NCBI GenBank assembly: GCA_947462335.1
Contig: OX381709.1
Span: 64,038,609-64,102,608, forward strand
Direction of reading: 5' to 3'
DNA length: 64,000 bases
From: Harmothoe impar
Taxonomy: Eukaryota > Annelida > Polychaeta > Phyllodocida > Polynoidae
Shown: positions 1,800 to 63,866 of the stretch, in pieces
Position numbering within the stretch: position 1 is the stretch's first letter
How the letters are laid out: each line of letters opens with the position of its first letter
Program-made: the position numbers and the translations under genes
Notes under the pieces: generated by a model
Told to the model about the DNA's origin: nothing
The model's database searches: none
The model's input: the letters and a program-made list of their open reading frames with translations, nothing else

Positions 1800-2990
1800 C
1801 CGCCACTACTCTACTGTGAAGTTGGACTTCTGATCGGATATAATTGCTCACAAGCTCTAGTCCCTAGGAAGGTTGTCACGGGAGGGAACAACGAACCATC
1901 TGCGGTCAAAACTGACCTTGGTTGGAGCATCGTTGGTAATACCTCTCAGAGCCATCAATTGGCATTCGCCAACAGACTCTGCCACAGAATCAGTCAAGGA
2001 GCTGCCTCCAATAACACTAGGAGATGCTATTAAGGCCTTAGAAAGGGACTTTCAAGACAGTAAGGCTGATGAAACGTGCATTTCACAAGATGACATCCTG
2101 TTTCTAAACAAGATGGAGAACGCTATTGACATGAACGATAAAGGTCACTATGAGATGCAATTGCCATTCAGGTTCCGTCACCACCTCCCAGATAACAAGA
2201 GAACAGCGCTCGTTAGGCTGAAATGTCTGAAGAAGAAGCTACAAAAAGGACGATAGCTACAGAAACCACTAACCCCAATTCATTAACGGCCTATTTGAGG
2301 CAGGGCACGCCGAAGTAGTGAAGGAAGACCTAACACCTGGTGAAACATGGTACATTCCCCATCATGGCGTGTACCACCCAAACAAACCAGACAAGCTGAG
2401 AGTGGTATTCGACTGCTCTTCTTAGCATAACGGCACTTCACTGAACGACCACCTGCTCACTGGCCCCGACCTGACAAATAGTTTGATGGGAGTCCTTATA
2501 CGGTTTAGGCTACACCCAGTGGCAGTCCTTTGCCATGTGGAGAAAATGTTTCACCAATTCCACGTTGACACTAACGACCGAGACTTTCTCCGATTCTTCT
2601 GGTGGAAGGATAATGACTTCGATGCTGACCCCATAGAATGTCGCATGACAGTCCACCTCTTTGGGGCTGCATCCTCCCCTGGATGCGCCAACTACGGACT
2701 GAAGCACCTAGTGAAGGAACACGGAGAACGCTTCCCCTTGGCGGCCGACTTCATATGGAAGTCTGCACCAAAGGCAACCTGCGCCTTCATGAATTCCTCT
2801 CCAACAGCAGGAACAGCAGGAACGTCATGAAGGCCATAGATCCTGAAAGACTGGGGACTAACATAAGTGAGTTTGACTTAGACAGAAATCATTCCACTTC
2901 AGAAAGAGCGCTTGGGTTGCGTTGGTTCATCCATAAGGACCTGTTCACGCTAACTAGCCAGATCAAACCTCAGCCAGTTCCAAAAGAAAT
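1800..2990 (+). pseudogene. BEL/Pao retrotransposon pol fragment (A17 protease-RT)
   Basis: The order of domains is that of a BEL/Pao polyprotein. At 1820-1945 the frame reads LLIGYNCSQALVPR and then KTDLGWSIVG, the Pao-type peptidase A17 region. At about 1980-2250 (after a frame shift) follows the pre-RT segment with DDILFLNKME and HYEMQLPF. At about 2280-2760 comes the RT: VVFDCSS, then a stop, then [11 protein letters not shown], and [13 protein letters not shown]. At 2850-2935 the C-terminal RT region ends in SERALGLRW. Several frame changes (near 1950, 2250 and 2765-2830) and a stop at 2425 make it a pseudogene. The YxDD active-site box expected after AADFI is absent. Confidence 0.88.
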
Positions 2991-3498
2991 GCATGTCATA
3001 GTTGAGATAGAGACTGATAATAGAAAAGAGCAGGTGGCTGCCCTTCTTGACACAGGAGAAGAGAGGTCGTTTGTGGGTCATGACTTAGTAGCCCGCCTCC
3101 GCCAAAGGGATACCGACCTGAAAATGAAGCGGGTTCACCTGAAAGTGCTCGCCATAAATGGCACTTTGGTCCATACCGACAGCTCTGTACAACTAGGACT
3201 CCTCACCAAGCTAGGAGCAACCACCCATGAGTTCTATGTTTCGAACATGGGGTATGAACTTCTACTGGGCTGTGACTTCTTGCGGAAGCACAAGTGGGAA
3301 TGGAGCTGGAGGGATGAAGACATAAGACTGCCAGGCAACAATACAGCAGGAGCAGCCATCCGCTTACAAGCTGCGACCAACAACACCATGATACCTGTAT
3401 ACGCCGGATGCGAATGTGTCCTACCATCATACCATACACTCACTATAAGGGGCATCCTGACCAGCATTCCAGAAAGGACTTATTGGATCTCTGAGTGA
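2985..3498 (+). pseudogene. Ty3/Gypsy-type retropepsin domain
   Basis: The reading frame continues from the BEL/Pao fragment without a stop. At 3001 it becomes VEIETDNRKEQVAALLDTGE, which has the hydrophobic-LDTG signature of a retroviral-type aspartic protease, with Asp in DTG as catalytic residue. Farther on, YELLLGCDFLRKHKWEW matches the ALLGxDFL-type strand typical of Gypsy proteases. Since BEL/Pao proteases lie upstream of their RT, this is a second element abutting the first. The frame stops at 3498, and the following linker continues in another frame. Confidence 0.75.
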
Positions 3499-3505
3499 TA
3501 TAGAC

Positions 3506-3841
3506 TTGAACTCAACTACGCTAGTCGAGGCGGCAGTAGTCTCAGTCTCTGGCGGACAAGTACCTGTGCATCTAAACAACAGGTCAACCCTTGAAATGAC
3601 AATAAGACTAGGTGACAAAGTTGGTTGGCTTACGGAAGTAAGCGGCACCCAGATATCACAGGCACAAGCATGTAGATTCCGCCAGGTGTCAGTAGCCCGG
3701 GAGCTAAATGGGGAAATGCTGACACTTCTTGAGGGTACAAATGCCGACCTGACAGTAGAACAAGTAAAAAACTTACTTGGATCAGAAATGAGTACCACAG
3801 ATTGGAACCACATACTGCCTACTGTTGCGGTTGTTTTATGA
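3506..3841 (+). pseudogene. Ty3/Gypsy protease-RT linker, copy 2
   Basis: This follows the retropepsin after a small frame shift (stop at 3498, frame resumes by 3506). The first 236 bases of the repeat (3543-3778) match 1-236. It has no catalytic motif of its own and is interpreted as the linker region before the RT. The frame ends at 3841 without entering RT sequence, so the RT is missing here. Confidence 0.6.
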
Positions 3842-9180: not shown

Positions 9181-9292
9181 ATGATAGAATTCCCTTTAGC
9201 ATAGAGAAGGGTGATGATCAATCGCCTATGTTTCCACAGCAAGTAGGGGACATGACTGAATCGCACTACTCAATGTTCTCATGATTAGCCAG

Positions 9293-9830
9293 CTCCTGCT
9301 GTGGTATTGCAGCTACATCATTATGAGAGTTGAATATCTCCAACAACCAGCTGACTGCTCCCTGCTGCTATATTGCAGCTACATTATTATGAGAGTTGAA
9401 TATCTCCAACAACCAGCTGACTGCTCCCTGCTGCTATATTGCAGCTACATCATTATGAGAGTTGAATATCTCCAACAACCAGCTGACTGCTCCCTGCTGC
9501 TATATTGCAGCTACATTATTATGAGAGTTGAATATCTCCAACAACCAGCTGACTGCTCCCTGCTGCTATATTGCAGCTACATCATTATGAGAGTTGAATA
9601 TCTCCAACAACCAGCTGACTGCTCCCTGCTGCTATATTGCAGCTACATTATTATGAGAGTTGAATATCTCCAACAACCAGCTGACTGCTCCCTGCTGCTA
9701 TATTGCAGCTACATCATTATGAGAGTTGAATATCTCCAACAACCAGCTGACTGCTCCCTGCTGCTATATTGCAGCTACATCATTATGAGAGTTGAATATC
9801 TCCAACAACAAGCTGACTGCTTTGCAGCTG
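9293..9830 (+). repeat. 66-bp minisatellite made of LRR codons, about 8 copies
   Basis: Eight near-identical 66-bp units run head to tail. In one frame the units form an uninterrupted ORF (9281-9877) of 22-residue repeats. In another frame each unit reads LNISNNQLTAP followed by CYIAATSL and a stop. That is a recognisable LRR with a frame-disrupting change. The sole common variant (CATCATT or CATTATT in the first part of the unit) alternates C,T,C,T,C,T,C,C along the array, so the array grew in 132-bp dimers. The 198-residue ORF is a by-product of the 66-bp (3n) period and not a recognised protein. Confidence 0.9.
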
Positions 9831-10080
9831 CATCATTAGGAATATTCAAAGTAACTAACAAACAATCTTTAGTATAATAAGGATGTTGTAGAGCAGGTTT
9901 TTGACAGATAAATCAAGATCCAACTTCAATTGAGAGGAAGGAAAAACACGAGAAAAGAATGCAATGAAGAATACAACTTTTACATCCAAGACTCTTCAAA
10001 ACGAGATAATTCAAATCATTGCAGATCATAATTTGTTGCCTTTCTAAAGTCCTTGAAAAGCACTGGTGCAGTGTTCTGAC

Positions 10081-52499: not shown

Positions 52500-53723
52500 T
52501 TATACCGGTAGTTCTATTTTGCTCCCTGCTATTTCGTTTGAGTCCAAAGGTGCGAACACAGGGATACATTTGGCACGAGTTTCACTATACAGTGGGAGAG
52601 TCTGGGTCAGTCACTGTGTATCAATAGCAGGGGCCACTATCAGTTCGCCATACCAGTGGGTTACATTCGGGGATAACATCGTTTGTGGAGCAGTCTACAC
52701 GTAGTGAATGCCTGTCACCCACTCATAAACCGTATCAGATCACGAGTGTATAGAGATGTACAAACATTCACAAATCCTATTGTAAACATGCATCTCCACT
52801 CATTCAGTCATTATGTATACTGCTATCAATATGACAATATCATATCTAACTTGTTACTTGCACACTCACAGGTTGGCTGGGATCCCTCTCATCTGGGCCA
52901 ACATTCAGTCTGCTGATTAGATACAACGTTATCGCTGACTCCGTCATTGATCACGTATAATGCATGACTCAGCCAATCACATGACAACTGAGGTATACAA
53001 AGGTTTAGGATGACAGTCCAAGCTGACCTAAAAAGGGGCTAGGGAACAGTCTCATAATTCTGGCAATGAGGAAGTAGGATATCATGCACAATGCAGTTAA
53101 GTGTAATCCTTGTGAAGGCCACTGTAATACACAAACTGTGAAAATTGATGGTTTATAGTCAGACCACCCAGTCAATTAATAGCTGTTATGCTGTGTTTAT
53201 GTTCGATTTCTAACTGATAACATTAGTCCACAAAGGGGGGAGGAGACCTAAATCATAGGCATGGCCAGCCTCTCATATCTTAATTTGTTGAAAACGTAAC
53301 TGAAATTGAAGCATTCTGCCTTCTGTCAGAGCAAATTGAGCAATCCTGCAAAATAAGCATGGTAAAAAGAAAGGATATGACAGAGTTTGGTGTCAACTAA
53401 ATTTACGATAGTGTATTGTTAGCCTGTGTGAAGTGGCTTCATCAGTACTATGCCTAACAGTAACAATCAGAGCTATCAGTATCAAACAGGCAACTCTACA
53501 CTACACTACAGACAATAATGCAAATACAGTATTAATTGTATACAGATACAGTGAATCTATTGAAGCACATGTGGGTCATTATATATCATTGTGTAATTTA
53601 ATTGTAAAATCATGAATCTTAATTCTGTAGTGACTTGATGGATATTGGGCACTGGCTAGATATCATAGATATTTAATGTATTTGTGTATTGTATTTTATT
53701 ATTTGAAAATATAAGAATCCTAC

Positions 53724-54370
53724 CTAGGGAAGGCATCAAAGAACCACGTCCTCTTGGTGTCGGGGAAGGCAACTCTCATTCCTGACATGAGTGGTGAGTG
53801 GAGGACCACAGCTCCAACCTCGTATCTTGATGCCAAGTCGATTGTAGGCACGGTACCGATGCTCTGTCCATACAAGACAATGTTTTCGGGACTGATGCCA
53901 TACCTCGTTCTCAAGGCCAGCCACGCGGCGTCAATATCCGAATACAGATTCTTCTCAGACGGTTTTCCAGAACTCGTGCCATAGCCAGAGTAGTCGTAAC
54001 TAAAGATGTTACAGTTGATCCTACTCCCAAGGCCGATGTAGAAGCTGGTCATCTGTCCCAGATCGACGGCGTTCCCGTGACTGAAGAGTATGGTGTACCG
54101 GGCGTTCGGCGCACAGCGAACATAAGCACAAGCAATGCGATTTCCACGGGCTGTGCGTGTCTGAAATACCTCTATACAGTCCAATTCGCGTTGGGTATAC
54201 TGCCATTCTGCTCTCTCGGTTAGATGAAGGCTGCTCTTGGATCCAGTGTCGTCCGAAATGAAGGAATATGTTGGTTCTGGTGGCAGAAAAGCCAGTTTGG
54301 CAGCTACCCGTGATGGGCATGGCGGACAGCAGAACAAACAACAGAGCTCACTCAGAGATAAACCATTCAT
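53724..54370 (-). CDS. ABHD17: ABHD17 depalmitoylase, first coding exon
   Basis: Encodes residues 1-215 plus two bases of Ser216. The N-terminus [18 protein letters not shown] has Cys at 10, 11, 14, 15 and 18, the palmitoylated cluster that anchors ABHD17 proteins to the plasma membrane and endosomes. [12 protein letters not shown] (residues 95-106) forms the oxyanion region. The nucleophile Ser170 lies in GQSIG. The family removes palmitate from substrates such as N-Ras and PSD-95. The exon ends TTCCCTAG before donor GTAGGA. The start is the only ATG consistent with the family N-terminus. The gene is divergent from the C9orf85 homologue, 721 bp away ATG to ATG. All three triad residues are present once joined to the last exon. 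Confidence 0.97.
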
Positions 54371-56068: not shown

Positions 56069-56257
56069 GAAACTCGCGTATAAGCCGTACCCCGACTTTG
56101 GGCCGATCCTATAAGCCGCACCAGGAGTTTGGTTGTGGCGACTTTAACACTGTACCATAGTGGCAAAAACTCCCATATAAGCCGCACCCCGATCATATAA
56201 GCCGCACCGCTGATTTGACTCGCATACTAGCCGCGGCTTCTACATGGGGTTTTACGG
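56069..56257. mobile_element. MITE of the GTATAAGCCGC family, left end truncated
   Basis: Contains AACTCGCGTATAAGCCG, several ATAAGCCGCACC words and CTAGCCGCGGCTTCTACA, and ends GGGGTTTTACGG followed by TA. It is closely related to 63060-63233. Confidence 0.8.
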
Positions 56258-56514
56258 TAGTGAGGGTCGACTGTATCAGAGACATAGACCTCCCTGACTG
56301 TAAAGACTAGTGTGCTACATGATTTGAATACGTTTCTGCTCTCAAAATTGACAAATAATTCATTGTATCTGAAATAATTTACACCTTCAATCTTATCAAT
56401 CAAGTCCATCATGTTATCACCCTGTCCCTGAGTCATTTGTGATGTACATCAAAATGTAAGGGCAGTGGTTACCGAACCGACCCAGTAACGTACGGCGCTG
56501 CTAGATTGTCAGAA

Positions 56515-56587
56515 GGGGAAGTAGCTCAGTGGTAGAGCACTTGGCTTCGGAGTCAGGGGGTCGTGGGTTCGAGTCCCGCTTTCTCCA
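56515..56587 (+). tRNA. tRNA-like gene, left terminal repeat (Arg-TCG-like)
   Basis: Seventy-three bases with a full cloverleaf: acceptor GGGGAAG with TTTCTCC (two G-U pairs), D-stem GCTC/GAGC with a 7-nt loop, T-stem GTGGG/CCCGC with loop TTCGAGT, discriminator A, no encoded CCA. A box TAGCTCAGTGG and B box GGTTCGAGTCC are intact, and TTTTT follows at 56593-56597. The anticodon stem pairs fully (CTTGG with TCAGG) only if the loop is 8 nt, CTTCGGAG. With a normal 7-nt loop (CTTCGGA, anticodon TCG, Arg) two pairs are lost. It may be a working tRNA-Arg, an altered tRNA used only as primer, or a transcribed pseudogene. Confidence 0.75.
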
Positions 56588-56592
56588 GACGA

Positions 56593-56597
56593 TTTTT
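56593..56597 (+). terminator. Pol III terminator T5, left repeat
   Basis: TTTTT five bases after the tRNA 3' end, as for normal Pol III tRNA genes. Confidence 0.75.
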
Positions 56598-56612
56598 CCG
56601 CGACCGTTACAC

Positions 56613-56626
56613 TGGTGGAGAAAGCG
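56613..56626 (+). other. Primer-binding site matching the element's own tRNA
   Basis: TGGTGGAGAAAGCG starts one base after the left repeat. TGG pairs with the added CCA, and the next 11 bases pair with the tRNA end CGCTTTCTCCA. The fifteenth base is a mismatch. Confidence 0.85.
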
Positions 56627-56917
56627 AGCGCACTCGCTGGTACGGTTGACTTAGACGGTTGGAGCATCCCAACTTGCTGGGGATTGGCCACCTGCTGGCG
56701 GTTGGTAGTTGGAGGAGCAGGTAGTGAAGAGTTGGTTCCCAGTACGGGTAGTTGGAGTTCAGCATGGAGTCAAGTCAACAAATTTGGCTGGATCGGTTTG
56801 GCACTGTGAGCTTCTATCATTGGCTGCTACGGGGCATGATAGAGGCTGGGGGAGCTGTGTAAGGGCAGTGGTTACCGAACCGACCCAGTAACGTACGGCG
56901 CTGTTAGATTGTCAGAA

Positions 56918-56990
56918 GGGGAAGTAGCTCAGTGGTAGAGCACTTGGCTTCGGAGTCAGGGGGTCGTGGGTTCGAGTCCCGCTTTCTCCA
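56918..56990 (+). tRNA. tRNA-like gene, right terminal repeat
   Basis: Identical to 56515-56587, including both internal promoter boxes and the 8-nt anticodon loop, and followed by TTTTT at 56996-57000. Identity of the two tRNA copies is expected because both repeats are made from one template during reverse transcription. Confidence 0.75.
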
Positions 56991-57234
56991 GACGATTTTT
57001 CCGCGACCGTTACAAAAAGATCAATCTTTTGATAGCTATTGCTCAAGCCCGGTGGTTTGAGGGGAGGGGGAGTTAAATAAGCCCCCAATACCATGCTGAA
57101 AGGGGCTGGTGTCAAAACAGAATATGGTTCATTAAATACTCACGCAGTTGGGGGATGGTCAATATTACCACCAGTATCACATGTCAATTTAGTTTAATCT
57201 ATGAGGTATTAATTCTTGCTCTTCTTGCTTCCAG

Positions 57235-58419: not shown

Positions 58420-58690
58420 AGTGTAAACACTTCCATTGTGTGAGACTTGAAATCATAAAATATGTCTTCCTTGGTTTATGTATTGTGTGCCTATCTGAAA
58501 ACGCATTTTCTATTCGTTTTCATTTAATGGAAAGAAATTAGTTCAGGAAGAGTCGTGACCCATAACCGTATTTCCCGAAGAATTTACGACCAATGCATGT
58601 TATAAAGACATTTAATACCTGGAACTTTGAGAGAGTTCTGAGGTATGTGTTCTTTTATGATCAAATCTCTAGGAATGATTATTTACATTA

Positions 58691-58961
58691 GGCCACACCA
58701 AAAAAAAAAGTTGGTCTACGGATTTTCATTTAGAAAAAATGGTGCGAGCGAGCGAATTTTTTTTTTTTTTTTCCAAATTTTCTTTTTGTCTGCGGATTTT
58801 AATCTTGAATCAAGTGGAGCGGTGGCAATTTTTTTTTTTTTTTGAGGGAAACATTTTTGCAAACTCCCAAATTTGGCTAGCGATCAGAAAAAAGCCACCC
58901 CCCCATTTTCAAAAATATGGTGCGGGAAATCCGTAGACCAACTTTTTTTTTTGGTGTGGCC
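58691..58961. mobile_element. MITE, TIR GGCCACACCAAAAAAAAAAG, copy 1
   Basis: The ends continue into GTTGGTCTACGGA and TCCGTAGACCAAC, so the inverted repeat exceeds 30 bp. TTA lies on both sides. The interior has T16-type runs after GGTGCGAGCGAGCGAA. The GGCC ends and 3-bp target fit PIF/Harbinger. It has no ORF. Confidence 0.92.
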
Positions 58962-60610
58962 TTAGGATGGGATTAAATTTAAGAGATGATTATGCAAACC
59001 TGAGAATTCATTCAATATATATTTATGTTATTTAAATGCACGTCCCTATAACCAGTCACTAGTACGTAGAGAAACTACAATTACGGTATAACATTTAGAA
59101 AGTCATATCCAGGTTCCGGTATGATAATACGTATACATGTACTTCATGTCTATATTAATTCAAAATGTGGCGTAGGAAAGGGCAGGGGGACCCGGGCCCC
59201 CCAGTCACAAAAGAGGGGGAGCGCTGATTATGTCTGCCTCCCCTCCCCCCCCCCAAAAAAAAATATATATATATATACACAATTGAATTCCCAAAACTTA
59301 CCTCTCCCACATAGTGGAGATAGAGGCCTGGGCCCACTCAGAACTAAAGGGGGCTTTTCAATGCAATTCTAATACAAGCTTGTATATGTGCCACCATGCA
59401 TGATAGCCGATGCTTAACGTTGATTGCAGTAGCCTCCCCCCCCCCCCCCATGGAGATTTGCTTCCTACGCCTCTGCGTAACCTAATTACACTGTACGGCT
59501 TGTATCTATTACCAGTACTGTACCAGTTAACATGACTATGGATGGTGGCTTTTAGAAGTTCGTGCTTGTCCAGCCTTCAAAGTAGAAAATGTTGCACAGT
59601 AATGAAAGTCATTTTTCCTAGATTTCAAGTCACTGAAACTTTTGATTACCTATAGAGGTCCTAAGGTCAGGGACCTCCATTTGAACATTTCAAGGTTTTT
59701 CGAGATTGGTGACTTTTATCCCTGAATGTATACAAACTATCTGTCTATGTTCATCTATTAACTGAATGTGGCTTTAACTGGCGAGGTAGTGATGGTTGTT
59801 GTCTCTGAGAATGAATTATATGTATTAACATAGCCGATAACTTGTGAAGTTTTAAGGGAATCTTTGTTTCATCAGAGATTTGAAATCACTGATAGCTCAT
59901 TTATTATTTCCATAAAACCTTATAAGACATAAGATATCATATGCTGCAAGTATCGCGATTAAGGAATAGCTTCAGCTCGTTGTTATGAATGTCCAATTTT
60001 GTTACTGTGATTGTTACTGGACATCGATTCTCTCTCTTTGTAGCTCTATAGTGATCGATGCCCAGTTTTATACTTCAGACCAGTGGCTCATTTTGGCTGT
60101 TTTTTGCCTCACAGATTGCTTCTAGGGCAAAATCCTGACTAGGTGCCAATATATTCTCTATGCCAATGTGTAAAATGAGGGTAGAAAACACTGGAACCTC
60201 AGTTAGAAAAAATCCTACTGAACAGTTTTTGAGAAAATTAGGGTTTTGTTGCATATTTTTGGTGTTTTTAGTACATTTCCTACATAAACCGTGAACGCCA
60301 GCATTTCTCACTTTTCAGGTGTTTAGAATCAGAATTTGACTTTTTCTTATTCGCAGTAGGATTTCTGAGTATCGAGCCATTCTAGAAAAGCTATTCTTTG
60401 GAAAAAATACTTAGTATTTCTTGATGATTTTCGTTGCACAAATTTAGGGTTGTAATATAAAAACTGCATTGTCATCCAATCAAAGTGTTTATGCACTGTT
60501 GATGGTCACCCCCTCCCACCCTCTTCACTCTGAATTGAAGGAGAACAGGCAGGGGAGGTACATGTGTCCGTATATAGCTGTTGACCTGGGTGCTGGGTGC
60601 ATTTTTAATT
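58962..60610. other. No gene recognised
   Basis: AT-rich intergenic sequence with C runs at about 59236 and 59437 and an AT dinucleotide run near 59263. Only short chance frames. Confidence 0.5.
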
Positions 60611-63059: not shown

Positions 63060-63233
63060 CCGTAAAACCTCGCGTATTAGCCGCACCACCAATCTGATTT
63101 TGGTGAGCTTAGTACTGTACCACAGTAGCAAAAACCCTTGTATAAGCCGCACCCCTATGCTGGGCCAATCCTAGAAGCCGCACCAGCGATCTGATTCGCG
63201 TACTAGCCGCGGCCTATACGTGAGGTTTTACTG
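63060..63233. mobile_element. TA-target MITE of the GTATAAGCCGC family, full copy
   Basis: Left CCGTAAAACCTCGCGTATTA and right TACGTGAGGTTTTACTG are inverted copies, with TA on both sides. Internal words ATAAGCCGCACC and CTAGCCGCGG are shared with 56069-56257. Confidence 0.85.
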
Positions 63234-63480
63234 TACATAGAATTAACCACAGCAGACTGGTGGGGCCAGACAAGGGCGAAGCCTAAGTCACCCTACCAGT
63301 TTGCTGTGGTTAATCCTACTTATCCTTTCATAACCACTGTCTATCTGTTTTAAACCACCGCAGTAAGGTTTTGTCAGGATATGCGAAATAACCAATAAGC
63401 TAACTTCTTAGTCTTACCCCTTCGCTGTGGTTTAAATCCAAATAGCCTGACTTCAATCCCTCTCGTACCTTGGCACATAG

Positions 63481-63866
63481 GGCCACACCAAAAAAAAAAG
63501 TTGGTCAATGGATTTCACTTTTCAAAAAATGGTGCGAGCGAGCGAATTTTTTTTTTTTTTTTTTTAAGAATTTTTTTTTGTCAATGGATTTTGCTGGTGG
63601 AAAACTGGAGCGAGCGACAATTTTTTTTTTTTTTTTACCAGCCTTGGACAAAAGTTTTTAGTGGACCCCTAACATAAAAATTTATTGGTTGATCTAGGGG
63701 AATAACTGGAAGAAAATTTGAAAAAAAAAAAAAAAAATTCTCAATTTTGAAAAAAATGAAGCGAGCGAAATCCATTGACAATTTTTTTTTCAAAAAAAAT
63801 AAAAAATTCCATTTCCGAAAATAAGGTGCACGAAATCCATTGACCAACTTTTTTTTTGGTCTGGCC
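63481..63866. mobile_element. MITE, TIR GGCCACACCAAAAAAAAAAG, copy 2
   Basis: Ends GGCCACACC...GTTGGTCAATGGATTT and AAATCCATTGACCAAC...GGTCTGGCC are inverted copies of about 35 bp with one mismatch. TAG lies on both sides. The body is longer than in copy 1 and again has GGTGCGAGCGAGCGAA followed by a T run. Its sequence inside the ends differs from copy 1 (CAATGGATTT against CTACGGATTT). Confidence 0.9.

Follow-up and report, generated by a model that had tools for sequence, protein, structure and literature searches.

It is generally assumed that LTR retroelements rely largely on cellular tRNAs for the initiation of reverse transcription. The locus described here, located in a window of 64,000 nucleotides of Harmothoe impar DNA, raises the question whether a short element can supply the tRNA that primes it from its own long terminal repeats (LTRs). 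The match between this LTR tRNA and the primer-binding site (PBS) and the co-variation of both between families suggest, short of proof, that the LTR tRNA is the element's own primer for reverse transcription.

Structure of the element and its primer-binding site

A complete TRIM of 560 bp was found in the window (Table 1). The original prediction had described two 157-bp TG...CA repeats with one mismatch. These were confirmed as an LTR pair differing at one base, with the ends TGTAA...TTACA. A 4-bp target duplication, which the prediction had not contained, flanks both ends of the element. Within the element no ORF of at least 170 aa was present. The purine tract in front of the right LTR was judged by eye and by its likeness to the interior ends of three related families (B, C and D, see below), which are similarly purine-rich.

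Table 1. Coordinates of the element and its parts within the window
Feature	Position	Strand	Basis
Left target-site duplication AAAA	56451-56454		Sequence; same as the four bases past the right LTR
Left LTR, 157 nt, TGTAA...TTACA	56455-56611	+	Direct repeat; same ends in scattered copies that carry target duplications
tRNA gene in left LTR, 8-nt anticodon loop	56515-56587	+	ARAGORN; Rfam, 55.1 bits; acceptor stem
TTTTT, five bases past the left-LTR tRNA	56593-56597	+	Sequence
Interior, 246 bp	56612-56857	+	Between the LTRs
PBS TGGTGGAGAAAGCG, 14 nt	56613-56626	+	Complementary to the terminal 11 nt of the LTR tRNA and to CCA
Possible small hairpin AGCGAG/CTCGCT overlapping the PBS end	56623-56638	+	By eye; similar one in family B
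Polypurine-tract-like stretch ahead of the right LTR	56841-56857	+	Sequence; putative role
Right LTR, one difference to the left LTR	56858-57014	+	Direct repeat; copy comparison
tRNA gene in right LTR	56918-56990	+	ARAGORN; Rfam, 55.1 bits
Right target-site duplication AAAA	57015-57018		Sequence; copy comparison

Both LTR tRNAs scored well above the Rfam tRNA cut-off of 29 bits, and ARAGORN agreed. That each repeat holds a full tRNA gene, as predicted, is therefore true of the fold. It is not true of an ordinary decoding tRNA, since ARAGORN assigned an anticodon of four bases and consequently an 8-nt loop. Boxes A and B of the left-LTR tRNA presumably lie near 56522-56532 and 56566-56576, and we take the adjacent TTTTT to be a putative Pol III terminator.

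The PBS starts one C past the left LTR. Its final 11 bases exactly complement the terminal 11 of the tRNA, whose 3' end in this family (here named A) reads CGCTTTCTCCA, and its first three, TGG, are the complement of CCA. The predicted match over 11 bases plus an uncoded CCA was thus found as proposed. The CCA is not encoded at the tRNA end: the acceptor stem is paired at 7 of 7 positions (two of them G-U) and the following base is A. An encoded CCA as tail of the tRNA was set aside for this reason, and the PBS with its TGG is in agreement with a CCA that is added. When the first 24 interior bases of family A were compared with dinucleotide-shuffled LTRs, none of 2000 shuffles gave an exact complement of 11 nt. 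The same control was weaker in families B and C, with 5 and 1 of 2000 shuffles, respectively. A PBS match usually extends over 18 nt; here it ends at 14 nt, which we counted against self-priming.

Several other features of the window were noted. Degenerate TATAAGCCGCACC repeats are located beside the element (56079-56218) and near the end of the window (63075-63158). A long, near-perfect inverted repeat on the minus strand at 58690-58962, one arm of which occurs again near 63475-63577, is perhaps an inverted-repeat transposon; its match to a plant microRNA family was weak and far below the cut-off. A 233-nt repeat (3-235 and 3545-3777) was considered as the LTR pair of a helper and rejected, no TG...CA ends being visible. 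The ORF between its two copies (2638-3498) had a weak, below-cut-off match to a gag-type aspartyl protease. Furthermore, a tandem array with a unit of 66 bp (9229-9953) has one frame open over 198 codons. The ORF at 53720-54370 resembles ABHD17, a well conserved protein; its nearest named relative, from Haliotis rubra, is 87% identical.

Copies and related families in the genome

The genome (1.51 Gb, 736 contigs) was searched with the whole element. The best 40 of 1858 first-look candidates were scored, 39 of them fetched in addition to the copy in the window. All 40 were of full or nearly full length with 98-100% identity, and two further short matches belonged to a second family. Exact 4-bp target duplications were present in 32 of the 40 copies and duplications with a one-base difference in 5 more. 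The two LTRs of a copy differed at no position in 16 copies, at one in 16, at two in 5 and at three in 1; this count omits two copies whose length differed. The 14-nt PBS was unchanged in 39/40 copies and the 11-nt tRNA end in 78/80 LTRs; as the copies were the best-scoring ones, this sample leans towards young insertions. In family A the tRNA shows no stronger conservation than the interior (changed cells 0.82% and 0.55% in the tRNAs of the two LTRs versus 0.27% in the interior), and this was also counted against self-priming.

The original prediction had looked to further copies for its support or refutation. Two LTRs, the interior and the PBS region are kept in all 40, and copies without interior or PBS were not seen among the best 40 of the 1858 candidates. 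Tandem tRNA genes were ruled out, since the copies are dispersed over separate locations and carry target duplications. The element is a real and recently active TRIM of the Helenus type.

The second family, B, adjoins one of the A copies (L020). Its LTRs of 230 nt lie within a 237-nt repeat that is identical at 236 positions, the sole difference falling just beyond the LTR. The B tRNA ends in CGGTGTCTCCA, and the B PBS, TGGTGGAGACACCG, is the complement of this end plus CCA. Further relatives were collected with a pattern consisting of a tRNA T-arm, 15-45 bases and CA-N-TGG, which leaves the PBS beyond TGG free and, through a single position, does not match family A. It matched the genome 444 times, the backwards pattern once. 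About a hundred of the 444 matches were listed, and these include sequences other than LTRs, e.g. an unrelated repeat cluster on contig C3.

The first 30 loci among the matches listed were sorted into families. One belonged to family B (L080, 14-nt PBS match) and one was a diverged A-like copy with one PBS mismatch to its own tRNA (L097). Family C, with the tRNA 3' end CGGCCGATCCA, was represented by 22 copies. Three of these, here named C-minor, have the PBS TGGTGGATCGGCCG with contiguous matches of 14 (L088), 14 (L107) and 12 nt (L087), the last one being shorter because the left-LTR tRNA is mutated; the right-LTR tRNA lacks the mutation and matches the PBS. In the remaining 19 (C-major), position 10 of the PBS is a T, and two of these have another PBS change as well. 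Two loci formed family D with the PBS TGGTGGATCTACCGGG. Finally, at two loci an LTR was joined to 10 or 11 matching PBS bases with other sequence behind them, and two loci were LTRs without PBS. Both flanks were read for 17 loci of families C and D, and 15 of these had exact target duplications; for family B none was seen. Families B, C and D pass the Rfam tRNA cut-off; ARAGORN gave no tRNA in the C loci L078, L079, L081, L090 and L104.

The two LTRs with 10 or 11 PBS bases and unrelated sequence behind them, L082 (G000:C1:17173349-17173401) and L084 (G000:C1:41526327-41526379), might be integrated incomplete cDNA. They were rejected as autonomous relatives, as no second LTR was present within about 4.5 kb downstream; additionally, no stop-free stretch of at least 90 codons was found on the element's strand in the scanned pieces. 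At these two loci, too small a number for a conclusion, PBS base 10 agrees with the own LTR tRNA, unlike in most C copies. Possible tandem or longer arrangements were seen twice: in L099 the LTR pair is 1348 bp apart compared to the usual distance of about 651, and at G000:C2:54529514-54530264 two B-type LTR ends lie 689 bp apart, each followed by a PBS CACTGG.

Co-variation and the mismatched families

The PBSs of A, B and C-minor match their own tRNA over 14 contiguous bases and the tRNAs of the other families over 7-9, and the variable PBS columns 8-12 are compensated in all three. Identities were determined separately for each part, using one representative per family and a reversed sequence as control; the B tRNA slice was offset by one base, which hardly moved the values. 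Between A and C the interiors were 85% identical (208/244) and the tRNAs 61% compared to 64% in the control. For B and C the respective values were 85% (interiors) and 70% versus 62% (tRNAs). The tRNAs of A and B reached 77% versus 57%, their interiors 78% versus 72%. C and D share 99% in the tRNAs, with interiors at 73% versus 68%. Judged from these identities, the tRNAs of A and B are related and have since diverged. Since the A and C interiors are so alike and the tRNAs no better than the reversed control, the tRNA was, by the same measure, exchanged or altered past recognition inside one element lineage, and the PBS was changed with it. Part of the co-variation between A and B could be due to the small hairpin next to the PBS that was noted by eye in both families.

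The T at PBS position 10 is unpaired with the own tRNA in 19 of the 22 fetched C copies and in both D copies. LTR-pair identity in the three matching C copies was 95.9% (122 nt aligned), 96.5% and 99.6%. Among the 19 copies with T, 15 had LTR pairs of 98.6-100% identity, one of 98.2% and one of 96.8%, and two were without a pair in the fetched piece. The young and abundant form of C is therefore the mismatched one. The predicted self-priming accordingly agrees with the PBSs of A, B and C-minor, which fit their own tRNA despite its differing ends, and disagrees with those of C-major and D. The tRNA 3' ends GGCAGATCCA and GGTAGATCCA would fit the latter two. Read as its complement, the D PBS resembles a normal tRNA end, apparently of a tRNA other than those seen here, and a different tRNA may prime the C-major and D elements.

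Cellular tRNAs of the host were taken from one family search, in which 63 of 100471 candidates were scored. Among these were seven kinds, namely Lys-TTT, Thr-AGT, Asn-GTT, Leu-AAG, Leu-TAG, Cys-GCA and Glu-TTC, in arrays and as single genes. A long tandem array of this type with a unit of about 1.36 kb (G000:C12:62640037-62773253) holds Lys, Asn, Leu-AAG, Leu-TAG and Thr tRNA genes. In the six kinds compared with the PBSs (all but Asn) no more than 6 contiguous nt matched, and Thr-AGT shares 14 of 18 scattered PBS positions with C-major and D.

Based on these data we propose that a helper LTR retrotransposon would move the TRIM in trans and supply the proteins. Pol III would transcribe the LTR tRNA, and short transcripts would stop at the adjacent TTTTT. 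Trimmed and provided with CCA, such a transcript could become the primer for minus-strand synthesis. Longer transcripts, from Pol III read-through or from Pol II and ending in the right LTR, would be the template, and their 14-nt PBS would pair with the same LTR tRNA. On balance we regard this proposal as a whole, in which an LTR-made Pol III tRNA with added CCA primes a longer transcript and a helper provides the proteins, as probable. An exchanged LTR tRNA would moreover bring its PBS along, because the primer can serve as the template for the PBS of the new copy. The LTR tRNA may hence be an exchangeable cassette, both Pol III promoter and primer source, with a PBS rewritten by replication and a closed, self-updating priming that needs no cellular tRNA; this extension we put forward tentatively, as a real possibility. 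Within it, C-major and D would represent a system which is decaying or moving to another tRNA.

Alternatively, a cellular tRNA might prime the element, and the LTR tRNA might have been captured from the primer type of the helper, e.g. by copying of the primer into the LTR, and act as Pol III promoter only; the PBS match would then reflect common origin. Described Helenus elements are primed by cellular tRNAs according to their survey (PMC10886601), and the T at position 10 in C-major and D would fit a tRNA from outside the LTR, as would the scattered positions shared with Thr-AGT. The A and B PBSs, however, fit their LTR versions over 14 nt, the A tRNA with its 8-nt loop is no plain copy of a decoding tRNA, and the six cellular tRNAs compared, an incomplete set, offer only the short contiguous matches given above. 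We consider this explanation rather doubtful, if still a serious one.

That the complementarity forms a stem in the element RNA, for folding, packaging or termination control, and is kept by compensatory changes while something else primes, appears improbable to us. The two arms are 24-35 nt apart in one RNA, and in A and B the small hairpin, as judged by eye, appears to reach into the PBS, but the TGG has no encoded partner beside the 11 nt and the site lies directly past the LTR, where a PBS belongs. A plain inverted repeat was rejected as well, because it leaves the TGG unexplained. Chance, or ordinary tandem tRNA genes, can practically be dismissed: although shuffled LTRs of B and C occasionally reached 11 nt, those of A never did, in three families the match sits at an equivalent position with a different sequence, and the copies are dispersed, most of them with exact target duplications.

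If the proposed self-priming is true, the element escapes the dependence on cellular tRNAs and its LTR tRNA is explained beyond promoter duty. It would furthermore be a natural system for how a primer and its PBS stay matched.

Comparison with known systems

For a vector of MLV, Lund et al. 1997, cited in PMC3185771, reportedly altered the PBS and engineered a tRNA-like primer to match it, a man-made case outside a natural LTR. By analogy, it would support the feasibility of a supplied tRNA-like primer. The primer of Tf1 is a fragment of its own mRNA and not a tRNA made from the LTR. Self-priming LTR retrotransposons of the Tf1 type are named in PMC6934838, and our element shares with them that the proposed primer comes from the element's own RNA rather than from a tRNA of the cell. 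The TRIMs of bivalves treated in the same paper are mollusc elements in which no canonical PBS could be identified, unlike here.

Cassandra and Ajax are likewise TRIMs whose LTRs contain sequence derived from a Pol III gene, according to PMC10886601. Theirs is 5S rRNA and not tRNA, and therefore this LTR sequence is unable to serve as tRNA primer; for Ajax, tRNA-Leu is given as the primer in that paper.

The closest relatives are the Helenus elements (Kojima 2024, PMC10886601; TRIMp3), TRIMs with tRNA-derived LTR sequence reported from fungi, animals and one plant, with bivalve families among those described. The original prediction had allowed that the element may be described elsewhere. This applies to the class, known as Helenus, and not to the complementarity, which the survey reports as absent and which is present here. 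A literature search judged on titles and the openings of abstracts, with preprints and the majority of subscription journals outside its scope, gave no other report of such complementarity. A PBS region in common with a Gypsy element as helper is a further trait of animal Helenus.

As in the Helenus elements of the survey (PMC10886601), our element is short (560 bp, compared to less than 1000 bp), non-coding and bounded by two LTRs, with tRNA-derived sequence in both, a PBS past the left LTR and a purine tract before the right one. The 4-bp target duplications of animal Helenus are in agreement with those found here (exact in 32/40 A copies and in 15/17 C and D loci). The survey raised the LTR tRNA as a primer, found no complementarity to the PBS in its elements and hence saw no role for it in initiation. 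In A, B and C-minor, unlike in Helenus as reported there, the PBS complements the own LTR tRNA over 14 nt. The comparison of tRNA and PBS co-variation can be repeated in other genomes, and the idea of self-priming, rejected in the survey for want of complementarity, is reopened by these families.
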